Positions 36,708-42,326 of a stretch of DNA of 64,000 bases are shown here, piece after piece. Position 1 is the stretch's first letter. Every line of letters starts with the position of its first letter. The stretch is taken from the NCBI RefSeq assembly GCF_900100295.1, contig NZ_FNEV01000004.1, positions 1 through 64,000 of the forward strand, written 5' to 3'. This DNA comes from Salimicrobium halophilum. Its GTDB lineage: Bacteria; Bacillota; Bacilli; Bacillales; Halobacillaceae. Made by a program: the position numbers and the translations under genes. The notes under the pieces are model-generated. The model ran no database searches. It was not told the DNA's origin and saw only the letters and a list, made by a program, of their open reading frames with translations.

Positions 36708-38141
36708 TCACTTATCTTTCTCACTTTTGATCGAATCGGTGCGCTTCCAGTATTCCATACCTTTCACACCGGGCAGATGATCCTGATAGAAGACCGGGTC
36801 TTTCCCTTGCCTGCGCTGATTCAAATAATCTTTCAGCGCCGCGTAAGCGATCTTAGACAACAGGAAGATAGCGTACAAGTTTATCAGTGCCATAATCCCC
36901 ATCGTCATGTCCGCAAGCGACCACACAAGACCGAATTCGGCAACGGCTCCGAACATCACCATGAGCAGGACACTCGTACGATAAATGATTTTCAGTCTCC
37001 CGCTCGTGCGGATGAATTCAAGGTTCGTTTCCCCATAATAGTAGTTACCGATGATGGAGCTGAAAGCGAAAAGGAAGATGGCGACCGCAATAAAGATGGA
37101 AGCCCACTGTCCTATCTCATTCTCAAAAGCCATCTGGGTAATCTGAATCCCCTCTGCGCCTCCCGGATTCTTATATTCTCCGGAAAAGAGGATAATAGTT
37201 GCCGTAGCACTACAGATGATCAGCGTATCGATAAACACGCCAAGCGTCTGGATAAGCCCCTGTTTCACCGGGTGCGTCACTTCCGATGTAGCAGCTGCGT
37301 TCGGCGCACTACCCATACCGGCTTCGTTCGAGAACAGACCACGCTGCACACCGATCATGATCATTCCGCCGATAGTACCGCCTGCAAATTCACGAAAACC
37401 GAAAGCACTGGAAAAAATAAGACCGATCATATCCGGAACCTGCCCCAGGTTAAGAAACAGGACGTACAGAGCCAGAGCTACATAGAAAAACGCCATAATC
37501 GGAATGATAAATTGCGTCACCTGAGCAATTCTTCTCAGACCTCCGAAGATGATGGACGCTACGATAGCCGTCAAAATAAGCCCGAGCACCCAGCCATCGA
37601 GAGAAAACGAGCGTTCAAATGCTGAAGAAATCGTATTCGACTGGACAGAACTGAAAACAAGGCCGTATGTAAATGTGATCGTAATCGCAAACACGATTCC
37701 GAGCGTACGGTTGTTCAGACCTTTTTCCATATAATAGGCAGGACCCCCGCGATACTGATTGTACTCGGGTGTCTTGAATATTTGAGCCAACGTACTTTCG
37801 ATAAAACTCGATGCTCCGCCGAGAACGGCGACAAGCCACATCCAGAACACGGCCCCCGGCCCGCCGGTGGAAACGGCTGCTGCCACACCTGCAAGGTTCC
37901 CTGTACCCACACGGGACGCTGTACTGATGGCAAATGCCTGGAACGCCGAGGTCCCTTTTTTCCCTTCTGCAGTGATCGATCGCTTATCGAACAACACCCG
38001 AAGCATTTCGGGAATCAGCGTGAACTGAGCGAATTTCAGTTTGATGGAAAACCATAGTCCCAGTCCAAGTAATACGATAATCAGTATGTATCCCCATAAG
38101 GCGTCATTGAGAAACCCGAGAACAGATTCAAATAAACCCAT
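36708..38141 (-). CDS. Alanine/glycine:cation symporter (AGCS family)
   Basis: The 477-residue membrane protein imports alanine or glycine with Na+ or H+. Typical blocks are KGTSAFQAFAISTASRVGTG, NLAGVAAAVSTGGPGAVFWM and RGLFSNEAGMGSAPNAAA. ATG 38141 has AAGGGAGGATATAGT directly upstream and gives the usual N terminus MGLFESVLGFLND; a longer frame to 38195 is not conserved. The C-terminal 40 residues are charged and cytoplasmic. It is a single gene. Confidence 0.92.
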   Translation of the reverse strand: MGLFESVLGFLNDALWGYILIIVLLGLGLWFSIKLKFAQFTLIPEMLRVLFDKRSITAEGKKGTSAFQAFAISTASRVGTGNLAGVAAAVSTGGPGAVFWMWLVAVLGGASSFIESTLAQIFKTPEYNQYRGGPAYYMEKGLNNRTLGIVFAITITFTYGLVFSSVQSNTISSAFERSFSLDGWVLGLILTAIVASIIFGGLRRIAQVTQFIIPIMAFFYVALALYVLFLNLGQVPDMIGLIFSSAFGFREFAGGTIGGMIMIGVQRGLFSNEAGMGSAPNAAATSEVTHPVKQGLIQTLGVFIDTLIICSATATIILFSGEYKNPGGAEGIQITQMAFENEIGQWASIFIAVAIFLFAFSSIIGNYYYGETNLEFIRTSGRLKIIYRTSVLLMVMFGAVAEFGLVWSLADMTMGIMALINLYAIFLLSKIAYAALKDYLNQRRQGKDPVFYQDHLPGVKGMEYWKRTDSIKSEKDK

Positions 38142-38233
38142 ACTATATCCTCCCTTTATTTTACAAACAGTTACAATTTTCTTTCCCTTTTCCACTTTAT
38201 CAATAACCTAAAAAAAATCAAATGTATTTTTCG

Positions 38234-38261
38234 TTGACTTTTTCTTCTAAGTAAGTACAAT
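38234..38261 (+). promoter_or_regulatory. Promoter of the small binding-protein-like gene
   Basis: TTGACT (38234-38239) and TACAAT (38256-38261) are 16 bases apart. The -10 region overlaps the palindrome AATGAGTCATT, a possible operator of unknown factor. Confidence 0.5.
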
Positions 38262-38300
38262 GAGTCATTAATATAGAAACAGAAAAGGGAGACCACGTAA

Positions 38301-38639
38301 ATGAAACATTACCTTACGATATTCATCATCGCTTGCGCTCTCACTGCCGCTTTGTTCATCACTTCTGATTACAGTGGCAAAAACCAGGCTTTCCATAGAG
38401 ATAAAGTAGATACATTAGAAGAAATAGAGAACCAGGAACCGGCGACCGTCAAGCAGGCGACACTTGAAGAAACCGATGACGGCTTCTTCGTCCGGCTCGG
38501 GCGCGAAAGCCAAAGCTCCGAATCCGACATGCTTTTACCGATGGATGCCGGACTGCTGGATCAATCGGAAGGTGAAGATTTCATCCAGTCCATTGAGGAA
38601 CAAGTGGAAGAAGCACGGGCAACAGATTTTTTTTCGTAG
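38301..38639 (+). CDS. Small membrane-anchored protein carrying a fragment of the iron-binding protein
   Basis: The 112-residue protein has an N-terminal hydrophobic segment (YLTIFIIACALTAALFI, about 4-20) without a lipobox, so it is probably anchored or secreted. Residues 65-105 (RLGRESQSSESDMLLPMDAG...) align without gaps to residues 93-133 of the adjacent iron-binding lipoprotein (RLDREGQASEADLLMTADAG...), with 20 of 41 identical by my count. The remainder shows no similarity that I can see. The gene has its own promoter, ribosome site (AAAAGGGAG) and terminator, and no frameshift, so it looks functional rather than a broken copy. Its role is unknown. Confidence 0.75.
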   Translation: MKHYLTIFIIACALTAALFITSDYSGKNQAFHRDKVDTLEEIENQEPATVKQATLEETDDGFFVRLGRESQSSESDMLLPMDAGLLDQSEGEDFIQSIEEQVEEARATDFFS

Positions 38640-38650
38640 GAGAATCACCT

Positions 38651-38703
38651 TAAGCGCAGGGAATGGGAGCAGTTGCCCCCTTTTCTGCGTTTTTTTATTT
38701 TTT
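38651..38703 (+). terminator. Terminator after the small binding-protein-like gene
   Basis: CGCAG..GGGAG faces GCCCCC..CTGCG, an imperfect stem followed by a long T-run (TTTTTTTATTTTTTT). Confidence 0.75.
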
Positions 38704-38715
38704 TCTGAAAAGATA

Positions 38716-38775
38716 TTGACTCACGGGGGAAATCGTGTAGAATAGATTTTGTCATTGAGAATGATTTTCATTACT
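38716..38775 (+). promoter_or_regulatory. Iron transporter promoter with Fur box
   Basis: TTGACT (38716-38721) and TAGAAT (38738-38743) are 16 bases apart. GAGAATGATTTTCATTACT (38757-38775) matches the 19-base Fur box at 14 positions by my count, with the central AATGAT..TCATTA intact. Iron-loaded Fur bound here would block the operon. Confidence 0.82.
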
Positions 38776-38800: not shown

Positions 38801-39904
38801 ATGAAAAAATTCATCACCCTAACATTATTTCTAGGATTCTTCCTTCTGCTCGCTGCCTGCGGAAATAGTGCAGATGAAGGATCAGAACAAGAAAATGAGG
38901 ACACCTCCTCCTCAGAAAACGAAGAGACTTCTGCTTCCGAAGAAGAAAGCGGAGGGGAAATAAACCTGTACACAGGTCGTCACTATGAAACGGACCAGGA
39001 ACTGTATGATCAATTCACCGAAGAAACAGGAATCGAAGTGAACGTCATCCAAGGGAAAGATGATGAACTTATTGCCCGTCTCGATCGTGAAGGACAAGCT
39101 TCTGAAGCGGACCTTCTTATGACAGCGGATGCCGGACGTCTGGATCGTGCCAAATCCCAGGACCTTCTTCAGCCTATTGAAAGTGAAACGGTAGAAGCGA
39201 ATGTTCCGGAGAAATTCATCGATTCAGATAAGAATTGGGCAGGACTTACGAAACGTGCCCGTATCATCGCGTATCACAAAGAACGGGTGGATCCATCTTC
39301 CATCCAGACGTATTCAGATCTTACGAATGAAGAATTTCAGGACAAAGTACTGATCCGTTCTTCTTCCAACATCTATAACCAGTCTCTGCTTGCTTCCATG
39401 ATCGCTCTTGAAGGCGAAGAGAAAGCGAAAGAATGGGCTCAAGGTATTGTCGATAACATGGCTAGAGAACCGCAGGGCGGGGACCGTGACCAGGCGAAAG
39501 CCATTGCTGCCGGTGAAGGCGATGTAGCCGTCATGAACACGTACTATCTCGGCAAAATGCTCCACTCTGAAGACCAGGAAGAAGTCGACGTTGCCAACCA
39601 GCTCGGAATCATCTTCCCGAACCAGGACTCTTCTGGCGCTCACGTGAACATCAGTGGCATCGGCCTTACTGATAGCAGCAAAAACACGGAGAACGCTGTG
39701 AAGTTCATCGAATTCCTTACAACCGAGGAAGCACAGTCCCAGTTCGCAGAAGCCAACTACGAATACCCGGTCAATCCTGATGTCGAAGCAGCAGAAACGC
39801 TTCAGGAATGGGGAGAGTTCAAAGAACAGGATCTTCCTCTCGAGCAACTCGGGGAAAATAATCAGCGCGCCATCGAAATTATGAATGAAGTCGGCTGGAA
39901 GTAA
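38801..39904 (+). CDS. fbpA: Fe3+ ABC transporter substrate-binding lipoprotein
   Basis: The 367-residue precursor has the lipobox LLLAACG (Cys 20) and then a Ser/Glu linker (about 21-52). The binding domain starts INLYTGRHYETDQELYDQF, typical of FutA/FbpA/IdiA-type ferric-iron proteins, with tyrosine ligands likely in YNQSLLASMI and MNTYYLGKML. ATG 38801 follows AAAGGTGGA. It is the first gene of fbpA-fbpB-fbpC. A hairpin 7 bases after the stop probably trims transcription, giving more binding protein than permease. Confidence 0.92.
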   Translation: MKKFITLTLFLGFFLLLAACGNSADEGSEQENEDTSSSENEETSASEEESGGEINLYTGRHYETDQELYDQFTEETGIEVNVIQGKDDELIARLDREGQASEADLLMTADAGRLDRAKSQDLLQPIESETVEANVPEKFIDSDKNWAGLTKRARIIAYHKERVDPSSIQTYSDLTNEEFQDKVLIRSSSNIYNQSLLASMIALEGEEKAKEWAQGIVDNMAREPQGGDRDQAKAIAAGEGDVAVMNTYYLGKMLHSEDQEEVDVANQLGIIFPNQDSSGAHVNISGIGLTDSSKNTENAVKFIEFLTTEEAQSQFAEANYEYPVNPDVEAAETLQEWGEFKEQDLPLEQLGENNQRAIEIMNEVGWK

Positions 39905-39910
39905 TACTTG

Positions 39911-39944
39911 AAATGTCGTATCCTTGACGGGGTACGACATTTTC
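39911..39944 (+). terminator. Attenuator hairpin between binding protein and permease genes
   Basis: AAATGTCGTATCC and GGGTACGACATTT form a stem with one bulge, followed by TCTG rather than a T-run. It would stop or process only part of the transcripts. Confidence 0.6.
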
Positions 39945-39970
39945 TGATCTATGGAAAGCGTGGGGTATTG

Positions 39971-41611
39971 TTGAATGTATCGCTATTTTCATCCAAGTAT
40001 ATAAATATATGGAGCATTCTCACTGTAGGTATCGTCCTTACGGTGATCGCTCCTAATTTCGTTATTTTACTTCAATTTTTCACGGAACCCGCCGATCAGT
40101 GGGATCACGTTCGGCAATACCTGTTGCCCGACCTTCTGAAAAACACCGGGCTGTTGCTGTTCTTCACGGGGCTTACTACTATCTTCATAGGAACGAGCCT
40201 TGCCTGGCTGGTGACGGCCTATGATTTTCCGGGGACCCGGTTCTTCAAGTGGGGGCTGATTCTTCCCCTTGCGATTCCTCCTTACATCGGAGGCTATACG
40301 TATCACGGCATGCTCAACTACACGGGTGTCATTCAGACGACGTTACGGGATACCTTCGAGCTGGATCTCGACCAGAAGTATTTCGACATCCTGAACCTCC
40401 CGGGGGCTGTATTCATATTCACGCTGTTCCTGTACCCGTACATTTACACGATGACGCAGACATACCTGGAGACACAATCGGCTTCACTGATTGAGAATGC
40501 CCGTCTGCTAGGGAAAAACGGGACAAAGATTTACTTCAGCGTCGTCCTCCCTATCTCACGAGCCGTCATCATCGGCGGTACAAGTCTCGTGCTTCTGGAG
40601 GTCCTGAATGACTACGGCGTCGTCCAATACTTCGGTGTCCCTACATTCACGACGGCCATTTTCCAGACGTGGTTCGGGATGAATGACCTGGCATCCGCTA
40701 TTAAACTTTCAGCTACGGTCATGTTCATCATCGCTGTACTGCTCATAGGGGAAAGAATCCTCCGCGGCAGGAAGCAATACAGTTATACGACTTCCCGCGT
40801 ACATCCGCTTCAGAAGAAAAAACTGACCGGACGGAAGAAATGGAGCGCCTTCTTTTACTGTCTCGCTATCTTCTCGATCGGCTTCGTGATTCCCGGGCTT
40901 CAACTCGTCTCGTGGATGATGTTGACGTATGAAAAGGTAGTGACAGCCGAATTCTGGACGCTGCTCACCAATTCTCTCATCGCTGCCATTTCCGGTGCGG
41001 CGATGATCATGATCGGGGCCCTGGTCATTGCAAACTTTACAAGGCTCAATAAGTCGCTTCCGGCCAAAGCACTTTCCAAAATGACGATTTTAGGCTATTC
41101 TATACCCGGAGCCGTTATCGCCGTCGGTATCAGTACCGTGTTCATCTATATAGATAATGTACTTGCCGCTTTATATGAACAATTCGACATGGACGGGACA
41201 CTATTCCTGAGCACAAGCCTGCTGATTCTCATCATAGCCTACGCGATCCGATTCCTGGCGATCGGATTCAATGCCATCGATGCCGAGTTCGATAAGGCGG
41301 GAACGAGTTTCCATGAAGCCTCGCGCCTGCTCGGAAAAGGTTCCATTTCGACATTTTTCAAAGTGGATCTTCCGATGGTCAAAGGAGCGGTGATCAGCGG
41401 GTTCATTCTTTCCTTCATCGAAATCCTGAAGGAACTTCCGCTGACGCTCATCCTGCGACCTTTCAATTTTGACACTCTGTCCACCAAGGCTTATCAGTAT
41501 GCGAGCGATGAGCAGATCCAGGAAGCAGCCCTTCCTTCGCTGTTGATCATCACGCTGAGTGCTCTGGCCATTTACTTTTTTTACTATGTTCTGAAAAAGG
41601 AGAGAAGCTGA
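39971..41611 (+). CDS. fbpB: Fe3+ ABC transporter permease (fused two-domain)
   Basis: The protein (about 546 residues) has about twelve membrane helices in two homologous halves, as in FbpB/SfuB iron permeases. Each half has an EAA loop that contacts the ATPase (SASLIENARLLGKNGTKIYF and AGTSFHEASRLLGKGSISTFF). The start is uncertain: TTG 39971 (or TTG 39968) follows GGAAAGCGTGGGG, while an ATG at 39908 would overlap the attenuator hairpin and has no ribosome site. The gene is one base from fbpC and coupled to it. Confidence 0.9.
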   Translation: MNVSLFSSKYINIWSILTVGIVLTVIAPNFVILLQFFTEPADQWDHVRQYLLPDLLKNTGLLLFFTGLTTIFIGTSLAWLVTAYDFPGTRFFKWGLILPLAIPPYIGGYTYHGMLNYTGVIQTTLRDTFELDLDQKYFDILNLPGAVFIFTLFLYPYIYTMTQTYLETQSASLIENARLLGKNGTKIYFSVVLPISRAVIIGGTSLVLLEVLNDYGVVQYFGVPTFTTAIFQTWFGMNDLASAIKLSATVMFIIAVLLIGERILRGRKQYSYTTSRVHPLQKKKLTGRKKWSAFFYCLAIFSIGFVIPGLQLVSWMMLTYEKVVTAEFWTLLTNSLIAAISGAAMIMIGALVIANFTRLNKSLPAKALSKMTILGYSIPGAVIAVGISTVFIYIDNVLAALYEQFDMDGTLFLSTSLLILIIAYAIRFLAIGFNAIDAEFDKAGTSFHEASRLLGKGSISTFFKVDLPMVKGAVISGFILSFIEILKELPLTLILRPFNFDTLSTKAYQYASDEQIQEAALPSLLIITLSALAIYFFYYVLKKERS

Positions 41612-41612
41612 T

Positions 41613-42326
41613 ATGTTCGTTTCCGTCGAAAACCTTTGTTTCCGTTACCGTAGTCAAGAAGTCATCCATCAGTTGTGCCTGGAGATCCAAAAAGGGGAAA
41701 TCCTGTCCATTCTCGGTTCGAGCGGAAGCGGCAAGAGTACGGTCCTTCGTCTATTGAGTGGGCTTGAGACACCGAATGAAGGTTCTATCACTGTAGCCGG
41801 GCAGACGGTCGCCGACGATCGACACTTCCTGCCACCGGAAAAAAGAAGCATCGGAATGGTGTTCCAGGATTATGCTCTCTTTCCTCATATGACGATCCGT
41901 AAAAATATAGAATTCGGTCTCGGGACATGGCCGAAGAAAGAACGCAAGCCCCGTGCAGAAGAGATGCTTCGCCTCGTCCGGATGGAAGCATATAAAAACA
42001 GGTACCCTCACGAATTGAGCGGCGGCCAGCAGCAACGGATCGCACTGGCGAGAGCCCTGGCTCCTAAGCCTGCCCTTCTGTTGCTGGATGAACCGTTCTC
42101 GAGTCTCGATGCGGACCTTCAGATCAACATCAGAAATGAACTTCATGACATCATCAAACAGACGGAGACGACGACCGTTTTCGTCACGCACGACCGGGAA
42201 GATGCCAAAGCGATCGCAGACCGGATCGTGACGATGCGCGATGGAGCCGCCCACGACTGGGATTCCATCTGTATGACGACGGAGCGTCCCGTGGAGCAGA
42301 AAGAAAAAGCCCTCCAGTCCTTGTGA
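41613..42326 (+). CDS. fbpC: Fe3+ ABC transporter ATP-binding protein
   Basis: The 237-residue ATPase drives iron import. It carries Walker A (GSSGSGKST), the Q-loop region (MVFQDYALFPHM), signature (LSGGQQQRIALARAL) and Walker B (LLLDEPFSSLD). It is shorter than FbpC of Neisseria (about 350) because it lacks the C-terminal regulatory domain. ATG 41613 follows AAAAAGGAGAG inside the end of fbpB. It is the last gene of the operon. Confidence 0.93.
   Translation: MFVSVENLCFRYRSQEVIHQLCLEIQKGEILSILGSSGSGKSTVLRLLSGLETPNEGSITVAGQTVADDRHFLPPEKRSIGMVFQDYALFPHMTIRKNIEFGLGTWPKKERKPRAEEMLRLVRMEAYKNRYPHELSGGQQQRIALARALAPKPALLLLDEPFSSLDADLQINIRNELHDIIKQTETTTVFVTHDREDAKAIADRIVTMRDGAAHDWDSICMTTERPVEQKEKALQSL

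Follow-up and report, generated by a model that had tools for sequence, protein, structure and literature searches.

Ferric-iron substrate-binding proteins of the FutA/IdiA type (class IV), e.g., Synechocystis FutA2 and Trichodesmium Tery_3377, are proteins of about 320–370 residues, and the strand-helix-strand-helix of their N-lobe is homologous to residues 50–102 of a 112-residue protein encoded beside such a binding protein in Salimicrobium. In comparison with them, this small protein is without the opening strand and helix, the entire C-domain, any of the Fe ligands and the lipobox. The other relevant class is that of the MicroProteins, which are known mainly from eukaryotic regulators; they consist of a single domain, are related to larger proteins and modulate the complexes of these. 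The Salimicrobium protein resembles them in its small size and its descent from a portion of a larger protein, which in this case is encoded next to it; however, it is bacterial, predicted to be membrane-anchored and derived from a transporter subunit, and its binding to a partner is putative. The FbpA, FbpB and FbpC proteins of Bacillus subtilis are small, basic, cytoplasmic partners of the FsrA small RNA that are unrelated to substrate-binding proteins; only the name and the iron context are common to the two sets, and the naming is a coincidence. A literature search returned nothing on truncated substrate-binding microproteins, nor on iron uptake in Salimicrobium.

The window analysed here is a stretch of 64,000 nucleotides from Salimicrobium halophilum (genome G000), which we compared with S. 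flavidum (G001) and two further Salimicrobium species (G002 and G003). The small gene (38301–38639, + strand, ATG start) lies between alsT (36708–38195, − strand), which codes for an amino-acid carrier of the AgcS family and is the ancestral upstream neighbour, and the fbpABC genes (38801–42326, + strand). The latter comprise fbpA for a FutA-type ferric-binding lipoprotein (38801–39904), fbpB for a fused two-domain permease (39908–41611) and fbpC for the ATPase (41613–42326). The small gene is preceded by a promoter-like site, TTGACT-16-TACAAT (38234–38261, + strand), whose hexamers are similar across all four Salimicrobium genomes, as is the ribosome site (AAGGGAG/AAAGGAG); past its stop codon there is a terminator-like element, a strong hairpin with a U-run behind it (38655–38700, + strand; MFE −28.3 kcal/mol, z −3.4). 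The first-pass annotation had credited the gene with its own promoter, ribosome site and terminator, and these features are in line with it; a scan with a simple terminator pattern did not list the hairpin, and no Rfam match for a structured RNA was found at the locus. A Fur-box-like site, TGAGAATGATTTTCA (38756–38770, + strand), with two mismatches against a Fur consensus, stands 5′ of fbpA, whereas the best site upstream of the small gene (38196–38300) has six. Since its promoter is without a Fur box and fbpA has one, the small gene probably does not respond to iron shortage by way of Fur. As to alsT, its synonymous divergence is mosaic (pS 0.36 for G000–G003 and 0.47 for G000–G002, against about 0.7–0.8 for the neighbouring genes), which suggests transfer between Salimicrobium species.

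The relationship of the small protein to FbpA was established by several comparisons. BLASTP aligned residues 54–111 with FbpA 82–139 (23/58 identical, ungapped, E 2e-12), and a profile-profile comparison aligned residues 50–102 with FbpA 78–130 (E 2.7e-9); FbpA, the product of the adjacent gene, is the only other significant match of the small protein in the genome. In a column-permutation test, the score of residues 54–105 was far above chance (reached in 0 of 20,000 permutations), and the gapless diagonal over residues 28–53 gave no significant signal (P 0.55). We therefore delimit an FbpA-derived slice of about 53 residues (residues 50–102, 38448–38606, + strand; source codons 78–130 of fbpA, 39032–39190), with an N-terminal part that is not detectably FbpA; the same test lends no support to an extension of the homology over FbpA's first strand and helix. 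The 41-column alignment noticed at the outset (65–105 against FbpA 93–133) falls inside the BLASTP alignment in the same register, the slice being somewhat longer towards its N-terminal end, and the accompanying claim that the rest of the protein differs holds for residues 1–49, which have no detectable relation to FbpA. At the DNA level, the ungapped match between slice and fbpA is in register and, with 87/159 positions identical, the best on the + strand of the window; the second-best reaches 71/159. The slice keeps the FbpA motifs RL.RE and D.LL..DAG.LD. Homology to the FutA/FbpA family is thus confined to residues 50–102, and with only 53 of the about 315 residues of mature FbpA present, the small protein does not have the two lobes and hinge of an SBP_bac protein. 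It has no match in Pfam or NCBIfam, and a search of the family genomes for the source of residues 1–52 found nothing convincing.

Preceding the slice are a hydrophobic segment (residues 2–22, 38301–38366, + strand), predicted to form a helix and serve as a signal-anchor, and a linker (residues 23–49, 38367–38447, + strand) with the genus-conserved pattern TSDY...H.D.VDT.EEIE.Q.PAT, for which an FbpA origin is not detectable. The 19-residue Kyte-Doolittle maximum of the N-terminus is 2.1, in agreement with the membrane signal that had been ascribed to the protein; the lipobox of FbpA is LAACG, and the small protein has no conserved lipobox cysteine and hence no lipoprotein signal. The positive N-terminus and the hydrophobic segment suggest a one-pass protein with the N-terminus inside and the acidic C-terminal part outside the cell. 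The FbpA model (pLDDT 79) places the slice in the N-lobe as strand 79–84, helix 87–100, strand 104–108 and helix 111–119, so that the copied region is a part of the N-lobe from which the initial strand and helix are missing. For the small protein itself, prediction gave a model of too low confidence for use (pLDDT 59, pTM 0.28), which does not reproduce the parent fold; it hints at a hairpin in place of an FbpA helix, and glycines 61 and 67, invariant among the small proteins, fall at FbpA helix 87–100.

A profile of the family's FbpA has its best matches among solved structures in the FutA-type ferric-binding proteins 2pt1, 6g7n and 1y4t. In this class, Fe(III) is held by an N-lobe His-Tyr pair and three tyrosines of the C-domain (PMC6254336), which map by alignment to H61, Y62, Y192, Y248 and Y249 of the window's FbpA. 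All five fall outside the slice, and the small protein, judging from its residues, cannot form an iron site of the FutA type. The first-pass annotation had offered sensing of iron at the membrane as a role; since the slice has none of the five ligands and the gene is without a Fur box, iron binding or Fur-controlled sensing is unlikely.

All four Salimicrobium genomes carry the small gene, always between alsT and fbpA or an fbpA remnant. Single-sequence and profile searches of 40 other genomes of the family and 397 sampled genomes of the order recovered no stand-alone small gene; the significant matches outside Salimicrobium are all long frames of FbpA size, and a weak match in Roseburia (L021) was taken as chance and not as an orthologue. 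Outside Salimicrobium, alsT lies upstream of fbpA in 17 of the 23 family relatives that have fbpA, and the small gene is absent from all 17. The alsT–fbpA gap in these relatives is mostly 236–351 bp, and 541–866 bp in three; in Salimicrobium it is 651–672 bp. Among 25 FbpAs of the family, only the two Salimicrobium sequences have Q99 and D115, and the equivalent Q71 and D87 are invariant in all the small proteins. Because these residues are shared and the relatives have the gap without the gene, the duplication most likely dates to the Salimicrobium stem, with the copy placed in a gap that was already there. The shared residues also support the description of the gene as a partial duplicate.

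Codon-position differences between the small genes show purifying selection. For positions 1/2/3 (108 each), they number 23/10/62 between G000 and G001, 38/27/67 between G000 and G002 and 33/26/76 between G001 and G002; pN and pS are 0.149 and 0.80 for the first of these pairs and 0.31 and 0.79 for the second. In neutral simulations with an equal number of differences, the observed third-position changes or conserved residues were never reached (80 residues are identical, and no neutral run kept more than 60), and the frame stayed open in only 2.5–5.5% of runs. This constraint is nevertheless weaker, by the measures used, than that on the neighbours: between G000 and G002, the thioesterase, aminopeptidase, ABC-F protein, AlsT, histidine kinase and response regulator have pN values of 0.04–0.11, and the small protein has 52% amino-acid identity against 85–93% for the six.

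The first-pass annotation had called the gene apparently intact, to be refuted by a lack of conservation in close relatives or a frame broken in most strains. The frame is intact in three of the four species, which together with the purifying selection supports this view; the exception is S. flavidum, which keeps fbpABC and has an in-frame TGA at codon 44 (L002 about 1702). This observation rests on one genome per species, so that an error in sequencing or a defect confined to one strain is possible; two or three bases of the TGA are unlike those in the relatives' codons (AAC, CAT). As changes on the S. flavidum branch downstream of codon 44 number 3/0/12 by codon position, the stop looks recent and constraint appears to have lasted until recently. 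A translation restart past the stop was considered and rejected: with no ATG, GTG or TTG ahead of codon 77, this species probably does not produce the slice.

G002 and G003 have lost fbpABC by a deletion that left an in-frame fusion of fbpA leader and linker sequence with the 3′ half of fbpC (L003, L004 1924–2460). In G003 this fusion is an open frame of 178 aa, whereas in G002 a 5-base indel interrupts it. No FbpB relative or similar permease remains in either genome, and the small gene is intact in both. The fbpC remnant of G003 is still well conserved (pN 0.10, pS 0.72), and the deletion is, on such sequence signs, recent. Over about 1200–2190 of L003, which covers the small gene and fusion, the two genomes differ by two substitutions, and from there up to 2400 by the 5-base indel and one substitution; the alsT beside this block differs by about 10%. 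The block was probably exchanged recently between the two species. Given a recent deletion and a probable exchange, retention of the small gene without fbpABC is weak evidence, and it says little for or against binding to the permease, which the first-pass annotation had put forward as a possible role.

That the resemblance to FbpA arose by chance, or by convergence on an acidic helix-rich sequence, can be taken as already refuted, with a negligible residual probability: Glu and Asp are abundant in the two proteins and the small-protein model fails to reproduce the parent fold, but the BLASTP match is far beyond chance, its target is encoded next door, the DNA match is in register and lineage-specific residues are shared. 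We thus hold with considerable confidence that the small gene is real and originated by duplication of a segment of fbpA. A relic kept by chance, which had been one option from the start, is rejected for the window's species in view of the purifying selection, although the S. flavidum nonsense codon shows that loss is possible. It is unlikely, if not to the same degree, that the gene is a fragment in decay, which once had a use but is on its way to being lost and has no present function in most species. Such decay would fit the S. flavidum stop, the fast evolution relative to the neighbours and the restriction to one genus; however, the codon-position pattern and synonymous excess, found also on the S. 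flavidum branch past the stop, and the intact frame in three species speak against it.

Another possibility, somewhat doubtful when taken by itself and yet nearly as likely as contact with the importer, is that the small protein took up a job unrelated to iron import, e.g., one in the envelope or one involving AlsT, the amino-acid symporter, for which the FbpA slice was only raw material. The intact gene in two species without fbpABC, the missing Fur box, a non-FbpA linker about as conserved as the slice (pN 0.10 against 0.09 for G000–G001) and the presence of alsT as neighbour in all four species are in its favour; against this, the loss of fbpABC is recent and the block near-identical between the two species, so that retention has barely been put to the test, and the FbpA motifs are kept in the slice. 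Because of these motifs, the importer is the first candidate partner.

The reading that we prefer, tentatively as a whole and with importer contact included, is as follows. In the stem lineage of Salimicrobium, a segment of fbpA (about codons 78–130) would have been copied into the pre-existing alsT–fbpA gap, where it became fused to a hydrophobic N-terminus under a promoter of its own. The result would be a new membrane protein that spans the membrane once and has its C-terminal part on the outer side. This outward-facing piece would no longer bind iron and, if it works at all, would do so through contact with another protein at the membrane, the partner most likely being the FbpABC importer or a similar transporter; the protein may thus be a modulator of uptake whose expression is independent of Fur. 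The more specific proposal, of a bacterial microprotein from segmental duplication of a substrate-binding protein, whose tethered, ligand-less half-lobe docks on the ABC importer and tunes uptake, is speculative and rather improbable. In view of the stop codon that it carries in one species, the gene seems useful but dispensable, and the product is most likely a young, dispensable, membrane-tethered microprotein, with a component of the importer as its probable contact. A knockout of the small gene would be simple. The locus presents a datable case in which part of a bacterial gene gave rise to a new gene next to it, with parent, site, lineage and later selection readable from the sequence; if the product does act on the importer, it would exemplify the origin of a microprotein from a transport-binding protein.
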